A stretch of DNA of 64,000 nucleotides from Cunninghamella blakesleeana. Taxonomy: Eukaryota; Mucoromycota; Mucoromycetes; Mucorales; Cunninghamellaceae. Within the stretch, counting starts at the first letter, position 1. Each line of letters begins with the position of its first letter. The position numbers were made by a program, and so were the translations under genes. Under the pieces are notes generated by a model. It was not told the origin of the DNA and did not search any database. It saw nothing but the letters and a program-made list of their open reading frames with translations. Positions 7,681-13,220 of the stretch are shown piece after piece. The stretch is from positions 5,803,501 to 5,867,500 of the forward strand of contig JAFCIZ010000001.1 in assembly GCA_017871115.1 (NCBI GenBank), read 5' to 3'.

Positions 7681-8938
7681 TTTACCATTGGAGGAGGTAT
7701 TTTAATATTTTTAAATATGGATGATGAGGATGAATGGTTTGTTTTAAATAAAGGCTTTCCAGGAGAGGATGTCATGGAAGATCTAGAATCTGTTGATAAC
7801 ATGGCACGTAATTCTTTTCTTTTTTCTTCATCTCTATTCATTTTTGTAATGATAGCTGGTTCTTGACCTGAAGCCCATTCTATTGTTTCAAACGATGATA
7901 ATGCTGGATTGGTATATTTACTTGTCATTACTGCATGCTATACATGAATAGATATATATACATATATATATAAATAAACAAATCATTAATACAAAAATAT
8001 ATATGTATATATAGACTTTATTTAGATAAAGTTTTTTATTTTTCCTTTTTTCCTTTTTTAAAAAACAAATACTTACTGCATTCACTACTGAATTAAAAAC
8101 AACCAGGGCACGACATTTTTTTTTTTCTGCCAAGAGCTCTACATCCGTAGCACCTAAAGGTTGAAGTAATGCAATTAAATCCTCTGTTGTAAAAGGGTGT
8201 TTTTTCTTTTTCCATTTAAATTTCAACGCATAATCTACATCTTTTGTTTCTGGGACTTTTTCTATTAATAATCAATCCATCGATAAAATAAAAGGTATAT
8301 TTATAAAAGTCAAATAAACAAATAAATGATCCATATACATATATTATATTTATTCTACAATTATTCCATATTCATTCTATTTTCAATTTACCTTCTTCCT
8401 CTTTTCTTTTTCTTAATTCTTCCTCTTCTTGTCTTTCTCTCTCCCTTTGTTCTCTTCGTTTTGCTAGTTCTGCTGCATGCTGAGCTTTTAATTGATCTTG
8501 TTCTTGTTTTACTTTTTTTGCCTTTTGTTCTTGTTCTTCCAGCTCTTCTTGTGCTTTACGTCTTTTACTATCCATTTCCTGTTTTTTCTTTTTTTGTTCT
8601 AATCTTGCTCTATATATATTATCGTAAGCGGCTCTTCTTTTTGGATCCAATAACGTTTCATATCCTTGTGTTAATTTATGAAATAATACAGCTATATAAA
8701 GTATAATATAATATATATACAAGTTAGATTAAAAGAGTTGGTAATATTGGATCTATATTATATATATATATATATCTGTATAATAGAAAATGAAAAGTTT
8801 ATATATACCTGCATCAGGACTTGGATTTTTATCTGGATGTACCGCTAGGGCTTTTTTTCTATATGCCTTTTTAATATCCGTATCTATAGCTGTGATTTGA
8901 ACACCTAACAATTCATAATAATCTATATTATCATCCAT
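7424..8938 (-). CDS. DNAJC17: DNAJC17/Cwf23-type J-domain protein with C-terminal RRM
   Basis: Spliceosome-associated J protein (established for human DNAJC17 and fission yeast Cwf23). Five exons: 8938-8809, 8691-8392, 8261-8077, 7937-7686 and 7546-7424, 329 aa. The J domain covers residues 5 to about 72 with the HPD tripeptide in AVHPDKNPS and the end motif [13 protein letters not shown] long charged helix rich in Lys, Glu and Gln runs to about 145. The RRM-like region follows: [29 protein letters not shown], then [12 protein letters not shown]. The tail [10 protein letters not shown] and [17 protein letters not shown] end match family order. Length is close to human (304 aa). The fourth-exon acceptor (TAG then CAT GCA GTA) was chosen because the alternative AG gives a stop. 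Confidence 0.9.
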
Positions 8939-9841
8939 TGTTTAGATTTATTATTCTAATAGAGTAAAAAAAAATTGGAAAAGAAAAAACTGCGAGAAAA
9001 AAAATCATGAATTTAAAAATCCTTTTAAACTCCGAGTTTTTAAAAAATGTGCATTTTTTTCTTCATCTTTTTTATTATGCGTATTAAATTATTTCGATAC
9101 TTGTATACATAGTAAAATACTCTAGCTCGTTTGATTTATTAAAATTATGTAAAATAATATACATACTGTTTTTTTCTCTTATTATTATGCATTTACACAG
9201 CTGATTTTCTTTTCAATAAGTAATTGGTCATAAACTATTTAATAAGTATCATGTACGTTTTTTGAACACTTTCAATTCTCCAATTGTTTTTTTAGCAGCT
9301 TATATCTTATTTATATATTCAAGTATATTATGATCTAAATAAAATAAAATATAAAAATCATGAATGCCACACATAGTGTACTTTAACTACATACAATTAT
9401 ACTCAAAGACTTGCATAGATATTTCCTTTTTAAGATATCCGATTGACCTTTAAAAAGAATGGTAGAATGAAGTATAGTTTTATTTCTATTTTTCAAAAAA
9501 AAAAAAAAGGTAAACAATTGGATATAATTTAATATAATAATCCATAAATAACAATTATCTTGGTGAACGGTTATGATTAATAAATGGTTCTTTATAACAA
9601 AAGAAAGTTAGTATAGAGATAGATAAATATTAAGTAGGTGACTGTTATAGCTTAGTGGGGATCAAAATTCATTGGCTTTGCGGTCAGGACTGTTGTATAA
9701 AAAAATTTACTTGAAAAATTTTTTTTTTCACCTTTCTTTTTCTCATTAAATTTTTTTTCTTCCCTTGTCTTTTTTCTTTCTTTTGTTTACACTTTTATTT
9801 TTTTATATATATATATTATTTAATTTATTAATTTATTTTAG
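8939..9841. other. Non-coding stretch upstream of the snoRNA host gene, with a possible structured RNA
   Basis: No protein gene. A candidate intron (GTAAAC at 9510 to AG at 9841) encloses a stretch of higher GC at 9540-9705. It can form a stem of GACTGT with GCGGTC around a second stem of AGCTTAGTG with CATTGGCT (about 9650-9686). It lacks convincing C/D boxes or an H/ACA tail, so I do not classify it. TATATATATATA near 9804 may be a host-gene TATA element. Confidence 0.35.
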
Positions 9842-9970
9842 TATAGTATGATTTATTATAGATAAATAATATATATATTTCTTTATTTTATAATGTAAGT
9901 AAACATAATTCTGTATATATATGTATATTATTAAAAATAATTGGGAAAAGAGAATATTAAAGAAAAAATA

Positions 9971-10066
9971 GAAATGACAAGTGATGTTATTCTTTTTACG
10001 TCAAACAAACTAGAGTTTCTGATTAAAATATATGCTGTGAACTTTATATTCTGATATTGTCATTTC
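9971..10066 (+). ncRNA. snR78: C/D box snoRNA, snR78-like (predicted 25S Um2421 guide)
   Basis: Box C GTGATGT at 9981-9987, D' CTGA at 10019-10022, D CTGA at 10051-10054. A perfect 9-bp terminal stem joins GAAATGACA (9971-9979) and TGTCATTTC (10058-10066). The 11 bases CAAACTAGAGT (10006-10016) before D' are the antisense of the 25S segment ACUCUAGUUUG. The fifth base from D' pairs with the U of GACU. That is the Um2421 site methylated through snR78 in yeast (rRNA sequence and site from memory). Confidence 0.8.
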
Positions 10067-10251
10067 TTTTTAATATTTTTTTTATTTGAAAAGCATTCCT
10101 TACAAAAAAACATTTCTAATTAGTATTTTGCTTTTTATTTATTTATATAGAAATTACATTTTTTTTATATTTTATCCCTCTATCACGGAATTCATATTTA
10201 AAAAAGGTAAACATTGTAAAATATATACAATATTTTTTTTAAAAAAATAAA

Positions 10252-10341
10252 AAATTATCGATGATGATTGAAAACTTTGTTGGAATTACCGTCTGATATT
10301 AATGAAGACAATTTTCGCTGGCTGCATTGCTGAGATAATTT
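10252..10341 (+). ncRNA. snR77: C/D box snoRNA, snR77-like (predicted 18S Um578 guide)
   Basis: Box C ATGATGA at 10261-10267, D' CTGA at 10293-10296, C' ATGAAGA at 10302-10308, D CTGA at 10330-10333. The terminal stem is AAATTATC (10252-10259) with GATAATTT (10334-10341). The guide GGAATTACCGT (10282-10292) is antisense to the universal 18S segment GCGGUAAUUCC, with one G-U pair. The fifth base from D' is an A opposite the U known as yeast Um578. This is the most textbook-like of the five. Confidence 0.88.
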
Positions 10342-10492
10342 ATTATTTTTAACATATATAAATATATCATTTATTCTTTTTATTCACTCTACTTTTATTT
10401 TTTGTTTTTTAGATTGATATAATATGATCTTTTTTCTTGGCTAAAAAGATTTTATTTATGGTAAGTTCTTTTTATTTTTACAAATGATGGAT

Positions 10493-10592
10493 TATATTAT
10501 CAAATGATGACATTCTAGATGACGAGTCAGACGAGTATTTCGGTGTTGACAACCTTTTTTATTTACCATTCATGCAATACTGACATAATATA
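10493..10592 (+). ncRNA. snR75: C/D box snoRNA, snR75-like (predicted 25S Gm2288 guide)
   Basis: Box C ATGATGA at 10504-10510, variant D' CAGA at 10528-10531, C'-like TGTTGA at 10544-10549, D CTGA at 10580-10583. The stem is TATATTAT (10493-10500) with ATAATATA (10585-10592). The guide TAGATGACGAG (10516-10526) is antisense to 25S CUCGUCAUCUA. The fifth base from D' pairs with the G of CUCG, the Gm2288 site served by yeast snR75. A second 10-base match, CCATTCATGC (10566-10575), to 25S GCAUGAAUGG lies before D but leaves four unpaired bases next to the box. Confidence 0.8.
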
Positions 10593-10816
10593 ATCCATAT
10601 CATTTTTTTAATATTTGATACATATATATATATATATATATATATTTGATTAATCATATTAATCTAATTTTATATTGTATATTTTTTATTTTTTATTTTT
10701 TAAATTAGATTTTTTTTATATATGATCATTGCTTCAATGAGTTATTGAATAATATATAGCCTATTGAACATCCGTTTCGGTAAGTTTGAAAAAATTATAA
10801 AGTTTTTTCTTTTAAT

Positions 10817-10900
10817 AAAAAAACGGATGAGATTAGATAAATTTTTGACAAGCATATGTCTGACTTTATTGTGTTGAAATTCTACTATCTGATTTTTTTT
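10817..10900 (+). ncRNA. snR74: C/D box snoRNA, snR74-like (predicted 18S Am28 guide)
   Basis: D' CTGA at 10860-10863, C'-like GTTGAAA near 10873, D CTGA at 10889-10892, flanked by an A-run and a T-run that can form the terminal stem. The first box is weak (ATGAGAT at 10827-10833 instead of RUGAUGA). The 12-base guide GACAAGCATATG (10847-10858) is antisense to CAUAUGCUUGUC near the 18S 5' end. The fifth base from D' faces A28, the site of yeast snR74 and animal U27. The guide match is strong despite the poor C box. Confidence 0.78.
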
Positions 10901-11089
10901 ATAAGGCTATTTTTTTATACAATTATTACTTTATCAGTTTAGTAACATTTTTTTTTGTTTTCATATATTGTTTTATTTAGATGAAATGAATAGTTCAATG
11001 TGGCTTAAATATTTACATGGGTGGCTTTATTTTTATCTCACATAATGGTAATTAAAAAAAAAATGCTATTTCTTTTTGAATGAAATAAG

Positions 11090-11180
11090 ATGGAAGTGAT
11101 GAATATTTATCACGACGGTCTTCCGAATTAAAGATTGAGGATAATTGGTTTGACAACCTAGCTTATATCTGAGTATTTCT
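11090..11180 (+). ncRNA. snR73: C/D box snoRNA, snR73-like (predicted 25S Cm2959 guide)
   Basis: Box C GTGATGA at 11096-11102 and D CTGA at 11169-11172, with a variant D' CCGA at 11123-11126. An external stem pairs GAATGAAATAAGAT (11078-11091) with ATCTTTTATTTCATTC (11181-11196), with a small bulge. The guide CACGACGGTCT (11111-11121) is antisense to 25S AGACCGUCGUG. The fifth base from D' faces the first C of ACC, which I count as C2959 from the A-loop U2921, the snR73 site. No target is recognised for the sequence before D. Confidence 0.78.
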
Positions 11181-11285
11181 ATCTTTTATTTCATTCATTT
11201 TATATTTTATTTAAAAAGGAATTGAAAATTATAGTTTTATTAATTAAGGCTTATTTTTTATTTTATTTTAATAGATTGATAACCG

Positions 11286-12569
11286 GTAATAGATAGATAT
11301 AGATGATAGTTTTAGTATTTTAGTTTAGATTCTTTAATTATAACATAATTTATGTAATAAATTAACTTATTTAAAAAAAATGAAATGATCTTTTAACTAT
11401 TATTCTAGAATTAAATATATATCTAATTATATATACAAAATACCAATTGTGTACTACCCATACCCATACCCATACTTTCTAATTGGGATCATTATTTTTA
11501 GTAGTTTTCGTAAATTACGTTAAAAAGTTATACAAGAAATTCAGTTTTTTCCACGACTAATGGACGAATTGTTTTGAAATTTTATCAGTTCGCTAACATA
11601 ATCATGTTCTATGTGTAAACTGATTTTCATACGTTGATTATAAATGTTAATGAGTTTATTTAGATTTATTATCAAGTTAAAAATTCAATCACCTCTATAT
11701 ATAGTAACCCAATTGGTTTAAAACTATAACGGCTGTAAACAAAACCGTACTTTAAAAGTAGGTTAACTTTCATAGAATGACTATGAATATTGGCTAATTA
11801 ATTTGAGGAATCATATTCATGCCATGCATTTATTTTTCTCCATCAATAATAAACTAGCTGAATGAAAATTTTAATAGATGGTTTTTATAATCATTCACTA
11901 ATATAGTTTAATTTTTTGAAAATAATCATATATATTTATGGAACAAATTAAATCGTCAATCTTAATCAAGTATTTTCTTTCTTAGAGTGTTTCGTATTAT
12001 ATTTATTCTAATATATTTGTTGTAAAAGGTAAAATACAATAAAAAATAAGTATAGAAGGTATATTTATATATGTATTAAAGTACAAGATGGTTATTATAA
12101 TCTTCACTAATTTAAAAGATAGTTAAAGCATAATCATTGTAAAAAGTCGGAATTTAAAAATGATCATTTTTGGAAATTAATTTTAGTGTAAAGGAAAAAG
12201 TGGGTTCTGAACGAATTGAATCTTTCTCTTTTTACTTTTTTGTACTTGGTAAGTGCATACATGTATATTAAAAAAGAAAAGAAAACATAGATGGATAATA
12301 AAACAATAAAGACAAACGAATGAACGATATTGTATGGGTGGATAAAATGGATATATGGACGGATGGATGGATGGATTAAAAAAAAAAAAAGGATAATCAG
12401 CGATGGATTTTTTTTCTTTTTTGTGATAATGAATTGAATGAATCTATGTATATATATACACTTTTAAAGGAAAAATTGATAAACTAAATTACAATTATAT
12501 ATATACTCTCTCTTTCTCTCCCTTTCTTTCATTTTTTTTTAATAATGATAATAATGTAAATATATAGCC
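11286..12569. promoter_or_regulatory. Intergenic region upstream of RPL10: TACCCA triplet, GGATGGAT cluster, possible leader intron
   Basis: No protein gene. Three tandem TACCCA units lie at 11455-11472 (followed by TAC). A perfect palindrome AAAAATGATCATTTTT lies near 12156-12171. A pyrimidine-rich tract at 12220-12245 is followed by donor GTAAGT at 12249, and TATATAG ends at 12567 just before CCATGG, so a leader intron 12249-12567 is possible. GGATGGAT repeats fill 12361-12376 within it. A second C/T-rich tract at 12507-12531 could instead be the transcription start, which would make the repeat a promoter element. Confidence 0.5.
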
Positions 12570-13220
12570 ATGGGTCGTCGTCCTGCTCGTTGTTATCGTT
12601 ATTGTAAAAACAAGCCTTACCCCAAGTCTCGTTACTGTCGTGGTGTCCCTGATGCCAAGATCAGAATTTATGATTTAGGTCGTAAGAAGGCTCATGTTGA
12701 TGACTTCCCTCTCTGTATCCACTTGGTATCCAACGAATACGAACAATTATCTGCTGAAGCTCTTGAAGCTGGTCGTATCTGTTGTAACAAATATATTGCC
12801 AAAACCTCTGGTAAAGATTCCTTCCACATGCGTATCCGTGTCCACCCTTACCATGTTACCCGTATCAATAAAATGTTGTCATGTGCTGGTGCTGATAGAT
12901 TGCAAACTGGTATGCGTGGTGCTTTCGGTAAACCCAATGGTTTAGTTGCCCGTGTTAATATTGGTCAAATCATTTTCTCTGTTCGTACCAAGGATTCTAA
13001 CAAAGCTACCGTTATTGAAGCTTTAAGACGTTGCAAGTACAAGTTCCCTGGTCAACAAAAGATTATTATTTCCAAGAAATGGGGTTTCACTCCTCTTTCT
13101 CGTGAAGAATACGTTCAAGCTCGTGCTGAAGGTAAGCTTCGTCCTGATGGTTGTTACGTCAAGTTTGTTCCCCAAAAGGGTTCTCTTGACAACTACTTCA
13201 ACGTTGCTTCTCGTGCTTAA
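12570..13220 (+). CDS. RPL10: 60S ribosomal protein L10 (uL16)
   Basis: Large-subunit protein near the peptidyl-transferase centre, joined late in 60S maturation. A single uninterrupted coding exon of 216 aa (yeast 221, human 214). The sequence [21 protein letters not shown] and the body [35 protein letters not shown] and [13 protein letters not shown] are unmistakable. The flexible P-site loop around [19 protein letters not shown] is intact. Strong codon bias as in the other ribosomal genes. The start lies in CCATGG. Confidence 0.98.

Follow-up and report, generated by a model that had tools for sequence, protein, structure and literature searches.

A box C/D snoRNA array with the order of fungal snoRNA gene cluster I, and its putative intron hosting, in Cunninghamella blakesleeana

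Between positions 9981 and 11172, the plus strand of the 64-kb stretch of Cunninghamella blakesleeana DNA analyzed here (the window) carries five box C/D snoRNAs, in the order snR78, snR77, snR75, snR74, snR73. With high confidence, we identify this array as fungal snoRNA gene cluster I in a member of the Mucorales, in which a noncoding host would carry one C/D snoRNA in each of five introns (Table 1). The first-pass annotation had described five C/D snoRNAs with guides of 11 to 12 bases in this order, and both Rfam matches and guide pairings bear it out. It had also assigned a box C, a box D, and a terminal stem to every snoRNA. This holds for four of the five, as snR74 has a degenerate box C and a stemless fold; because its fold lacks a terminal stem, we regard that observation as partly confirmed.

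Table 1. Features of the snoRNA array, with positions in the window; E-values of Rfam matches refer to 3 kb
Feature	Position	Strand	Motif, sequence, or value	Basis
Putative intron 1, hosting snR78	9895-10123	+	GTAAGT...TAG, 229 nt	Splice motifs
snR78 homologue	9981-10054	+		Rfam RF01176, box-and-stem scan, fold, pairing to yeast 25S context
snR78 Rfam match	9977-10056		30.0 bits, below cut-off 48, E 0.066	RF01176
snR78 box C	9981-9987	+	GTGATGT	
snR78 guide	10006-10016	+	CAAACTAGAGT	
snR78 D'	10019-10022	+	CTGA	
snR78 box D	10051-10054	+	CTGA	
snR78 external stem	9950-9980 with 10057-10080		24 pairs	Fold
Putative exon 2	10124-10206	+	83 nt	Between putative splice sites
Putative intron 2, hosting snR77	10207-10412	+	GTAAAC...TAG, 206 nt	Splice motifs
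snR77 homologue	10261-10333	+		Rfam RF01178, own-18S pairing, fold
snR77 Rfam match	10255-10341		57.4 bits, above cut-off 52	RF01178 (snoR77Y)
snR77 box C	10261-10267	+	ATGATGA	
snR77 guide	10281-10291	+	TGGAATTACCG	
snR77 D'	10293-10296	+	CTGA	
snR77 box D	10330-10333	+	CTGA	
snR77 external stem			16 pairs	Fold
Putative internal exon	10413-10460	+	48 nt	
Putative intron 3, hosting snR75	10461-10708	+	GTAAGT...TAG, 248 nt	Splice motifs
snR75 homologue	10504-10583	+		Rfam RF01185, arms, fold, pairing to yeast 25S context
snR75 Rfam match	10502-10585		71.6 bits, above cut-off 40	RF01185
snR75 box C	10504-10510	+	ATGATGA	
snR75 guide	10516-10526	+	TAGATGACGAG	
snR75 D'	10528-10531	+	CAGA	
snR75 second conserved element	10566-10575	+	CCATTCATGC	
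snR75 box D	10580-10583	+	CTGA	
snR75 external stem, arms	10487-10500 / 10585-10598		19 pairs; perfect 14-bp arms	Fold, arm search
Putative internal exon	10709-10779	+	71 nt	
Putative intron 4, hosting snR74	10780-10980	+	GTAAGT...TAG, 201 nt	Splice motifs
snR74 (SNORD27) homologue	10824-10892	+		Rfam RF00086, own-18S pairing, fold
snR74 Rfam match	10819-10896		37.6 bits, below cut-off 52, E 2.9e-4	RF00086 (SNORD27)
snR74 degenerate box C	10824-10830	+	CGGATGA	
snR74 guide	10847-10858	+	GACAAGCATATG	
snR74 D'	10860-10863	+	CTGA	
snR74 box D	10889-10892	+	CTGA	
Putative internal exon	10981-11047	+	67 nt	
Putative intron 5, hosting snR73	11048-11274	+	GTAATT...TAG, 227 nt	Splice motifs
snR73 (SNORD35) homologue	11096-11172	+		Rfam RF00211, scan, arms, fold, pairing to yeast 25S context
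snR73 Rfam match	11091-11176		20.2 bits, below cut-off 36, E 0.37	RF00211 (SNORD35)
snR73 box C	11096-11102	+	GTGATGA	
snR73 guide	11110-11121	+	TCACGACGGTCT	
snR73 D'	11123-11126	+	CCGA	
snR73 box D	11169-11172	+	CTGA	
snR73 external stem, arms	11077-11088 / 11186-11197		19 pairs; perfect 12-bp arms	Fold, arm search

Rfam was run at gathering thresholds on the whole window and at relaxed thresholds on 3 kb. The former found two RNAs, snR75 and snoR77Y, both within the array; the latter listed 20 matches, including SNORD27, snR78, and SNORD35 in the right order. All five families were recovered in the expected order, with two snoRNAs passing the curated cut-off and three scoring below it. Beside these scores, the identities of snR78, snR74, and snR73 are supported by their guides, boxes, and place. 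SNORD27 is the Rfam family that contains yeast snR74, and SNORD35 belongs to clan CL00056, which also contains snR73. For the fifth snoRNA, a Plasmodium family, whose model has the same guide word, and SNORD11B reached 22.4 and 21.4 bits versus 20.2 for SNORD35, all below cut-off. The Rfam snR73 model (RF01207) had no match genome-wide, a result that does not show absence, because 14 control genomes gave no match either. Assignment of the fifth guide to the snR69/snR71 type was considered and dropped; the fifth-nucleotide rule, applied by hand, leads to the C2959 site, in agreement with SNORD35.

In yeast numbering, we take the targets of the five guides to be 25S U2421 (snR78), 18S U578 (snR77), 25S G2288 (snR75), 18S A28 (snR74), and 25S C2959 (snR73). 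The same sites are numbered Um2414, Um578, Gm2286, Am28, and Cm2956 in PMC3511168. On the species' own 18S (1844 nt, Rfam), the snR77 guide pairs over 11 nt with positions 580 to 590 (target U583) and the snR74 guide over 12 nt with positions 25 to 36; the target of the latter, A28, carries the same number as yeast Am28. Both guides lie one base before CTGA and follow the fifth-nucleotide target rule. Across both strands of the whole window, 11-nt complementarity to 18S that ends 0 to 1 nt before CTGA occurs at three sites, namely, the snR77 guide, the snR74 guide, and one A/T run. The 25S side of the species' rDNA stretch reads N, so that the remaining guides were compared with yeast 25S contexts only. 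In these contexts, snR78 pairs over 11 nt at U2421, ending 2 nt before D' CTGA, snR75 over 11 nt at G2288, ending 1 nt before D' CAGA, and snR73 over 12 nt at C2959, ending 1 nt before D' CCGA. Five 5.8S genes were listed, two near the low end of contig C11 (minus strand), two near its high end (plus strand), and one on contig C12, which places rDNA near both ends of C11 (1,163,094 bases).

The second conserved element of snR75, also present in the Rfam consensus, can pair, over 10 nt, with the yeast 25S context on the downstream side of G2288. It is separated from box D by a gap of 4 nt, which suggests an accessory pairing rather than a guide for a second methylation.

Functionless C/D-like motifs, arising by chance in A/T-rich DNA or left as degenerate remnants, could in principle mimic such an array. 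This reading gains from the three snoRNAs that miss the Rfam cut-off and from our box-and-stem scan (one mismatch allowed in box C, CTGA required, terminal stem of 9 or more; both strands, 64 kb), which returned a mean of 3.68 matches per shuffled window. The window itself gave seven matches, four of them array snoRNAs; snR74 was missed because of its degenerate box C. None of 200 dinucleotide shuffles contained four matches within 1.2 kb, the maximum on one strand being three, in 10 shuffles. As two of the three CTGA-adjacent 18S complementarities in the window are the expected guides and the snoRNA order is the same as in yeast, we give this reading almost no credence.

Whole-genome searches (31.9 Mb, 12 contigs) found one full copy of the locus. 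The seven other matches were fragments of 41 to 88 bases (E of 1.9e-9 or weaker), one of which falls within the array locus itself, on the opposite strand. Downstream, the L10 ribosomal protein gene at 12561 to 13217 is closest to that of Halteromyces radiatus (95% identity, among the best 120 of 6810 matches), a genus of the Cunninghamellaceae (Mucorales, Mucoromycota). Minus-strand open reading frames (ORFs) upstream of the array (7918 to 8950) look by eye as if they encode a DNAJC17-like protein that combines a J-domain and an RNA-binding segment; Pfam matched neither of two pieces searched.

The putative introns combine GTAAGT at three of five 5' splice sites, weaker sites in introns 2 and 5, and TAG at all five 3' ends. 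GTA[AT]GT occurs only three times on the plus strand of 9500 to 11600, at 86, 43, and 44 nt upstream of box C, a distance range judged post hoc, once the sites were known. The same 2.1 kb contains 20 instances of the looser GTRNNY and 34 of TAG. Three protein-gene introns of the window, placed by eye, start with GTAAGT, GTAAAT, and GTAAGT and end with TAG. Motif placement, TAG ends, and the similarity to these introns make splicing of the five array introns likely. The joined exons (9840 to 11380) contain no long ORF, the longest stop-free run in the three forward frames being 38 codons, or 19 from an ATG.

Boxes, guides, order, and the two own-18S pairings are read directly from the genome sequence; splicing, trimming, and methylation we infer. 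A single noncoding transcript would bear the five introns, each of which would be released by the spliceosome and its lariat then opened. Exonucleases would trim it back as far as the snoRNP assembled on the C/D core, as is established for intronic snoRNAs elsewhere, and the snoRNPs would direct 2'-O-methylation at the five rRNA sites given above.

Real snoRNAs might also be freed, some or all of them, by endonucleolytic cuts of the RNase III type in long external stems, with splice motifs that are partly chance. The fold gives 24, 16, 19, and 19 pairs across the C/D core of snR78, snR77, snR75, and snR73, and Pac1 of S. pombe is said to require stems no shorter than 20 bp (PMC12508059); snR74, with 0 pairs, has no external stem that could be cut in this manner. 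Introns 2 and 5 begin with GTAAAC and GTAATT, as partly accidental motifs might, but all three GTA[AT]GT of the region are directly upstream of box C and all five model introns end with TAG. The intronless Saccharomyces polycistron is indeed cut by RNase III. However, the Rnt1p-cut stem-loops of S. cerevisiae sit between the snoRNAs, (PMC5033589), unlike the stems of the array, and PMC3596301 reports the R. oryzae cluster as intronic. We consider release by such cuts very unlikely. It is likewise improbable that an RNase III, acting on these stems (16 to 24 pairs, at four of five snoRNAs), frees the enclosed snoRNAs whether or not the introns are spliced. If true, this lineage would show a dual-route state similar to a possible forerunner of the intronless Saccharomyces polycistron.

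The preferred reading, an intron-hosted cluster I, is weakened by the three sub-cut-off scores, the lack of an RF01207 match, the poor box C and stemless fold of snR74, the two 5' sites other than GTAAGT, the commonness of TAG, and the comparison of three guides with yeast rather than own 25S contexts. It is favored by the Rfam matches, the own-18S pairing at A28 and U583, clustering beyond that of 200 shuffles, the single full copy, and the intronic position described for Neurospora and R. oryzae in PMC2780460 and PMC3596301, respectively.

Exact snR76 and snR72 guide words, derived from yeast 25S, were found neither on the plus strand of the window nor in the five snoRNAs. Genome-wide, 10 snR76 guide bases followed by CTGA (exact letters, yeast 25S) had 0 matches. 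A relaxed pattern had 28, versus 17 for a reversed control; 12 of the 28 were inspected by eye and none was convincing, with 11 lacking a box C in place. Locus L015 has a box-C-like GTGATGT upstream and ATGA after the match but was rejected as snR76, with 8 guide bases paired in a trinucleotide-repeat stretch. Three other relaxed matches (L011, L016, and L022) have roughly 150 surrounding bases in common and, by this resemblance, probably belong to a repeated or mobile element. The snR72 guide pattern (exact letters, yeast 25S) had two matches genome-wide, one resembling a protein-coding exon (L010) and one in an A-rich stretch (L009). Both were rejected, as box C was absent by eye, and Rfam matched neither up to E 1. 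That no credible snR76 or snR72 emerged from a search made insensitive by exact letters, yeast 25S, and inspection of 12 of the 28 relaxed matches agrees with the R. oryzae report.

R. oryzae belongs to the Mucorales. The study of Luo et al. 2013 (PMC3596301), from which the name cluster I is taken, places the array in nearly all fungi analyzed there, with intronic snoRNAs in Euascomycetes, Basidiomycota, and Rhizopus oryzae. It also states that R. oryzae lost the snR76 intron, that most fungi lost the snR72 intron from cluster I, and that several members moved out or vanished in some Basidiomycota. Our array is likewise a Mucorales cluster I, and snR76 was not found in it by an insensitive search; the likeness to R. 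oryzae, a different organism, is drawn from the published description. Cluster I of N. crassa has, as proposed for the array, a noncoding host with intronic C/D snoRNAs, and snoRNAs for these five sites appear as intronic in Liu et al. 2009 (PMC2780460), where spliced noncoding hosts of intronic snoRNAs were shown by RT-PCR in Neurospora. There, a single snoRNA, CD5, combines the guides of snR78 and snR72, and the homologue of snR76 is CD12, whereas our five snoRNAs lack the exact snR72 and snR76 guide words tested. Liu et al. draw the comparison with animal UHG/gas5-type hosts, which are noncoding and harbor a single C/D snoRNA in each intron, as proposed for the array; their snoRNA content differs from that of the array.

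The S. cerevisiae snR78-snR72 polycistron has the same guides in the same order for five of its seven members but is intronless and cut by Rnt1p (PMC5033589), and it includes snR76 and snR72. PMC5033589 (2016) describes intron loss and Rnt1p cutting in Saccharomyces, citing Mitrovich et al. 2010, and Luo et al. 2013 credit the de-intronization to earlier work (PMC3596301). Eleven C/D snoRNAs are reported from Lichtheimia in PMC4133162. Titles and abstract openings of the papers found on snoRNAs in Mucoromycota, Mucorales, and Cunninghamella do not name cluster I.

The first-pass annotation had proposed an origin of the array before these fungal lineages diverged, with its order kept and its processing changed, leaving the direction of change open. 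Papers of 2009 to 2016 support the first proposal, which was hence already in print, and also the change itself, for which they place intron hosting first and the intronless polycistron as derived. The comparison thus supports, and does not newly establish, that Saccharomyces lost the introns and that the array would be older than the split of Mucoromycota and Ascomycota. As this evolutionary reading has been published, the array is another case of a known arrangement. It leaves current views unchanged, fits intron hosting as the ancestral state and the snR76 intron loss already reported for R. oryzae, and extends what is on record for this old fungal snoRNA array by a Mucorales genome close to Halteromyces.
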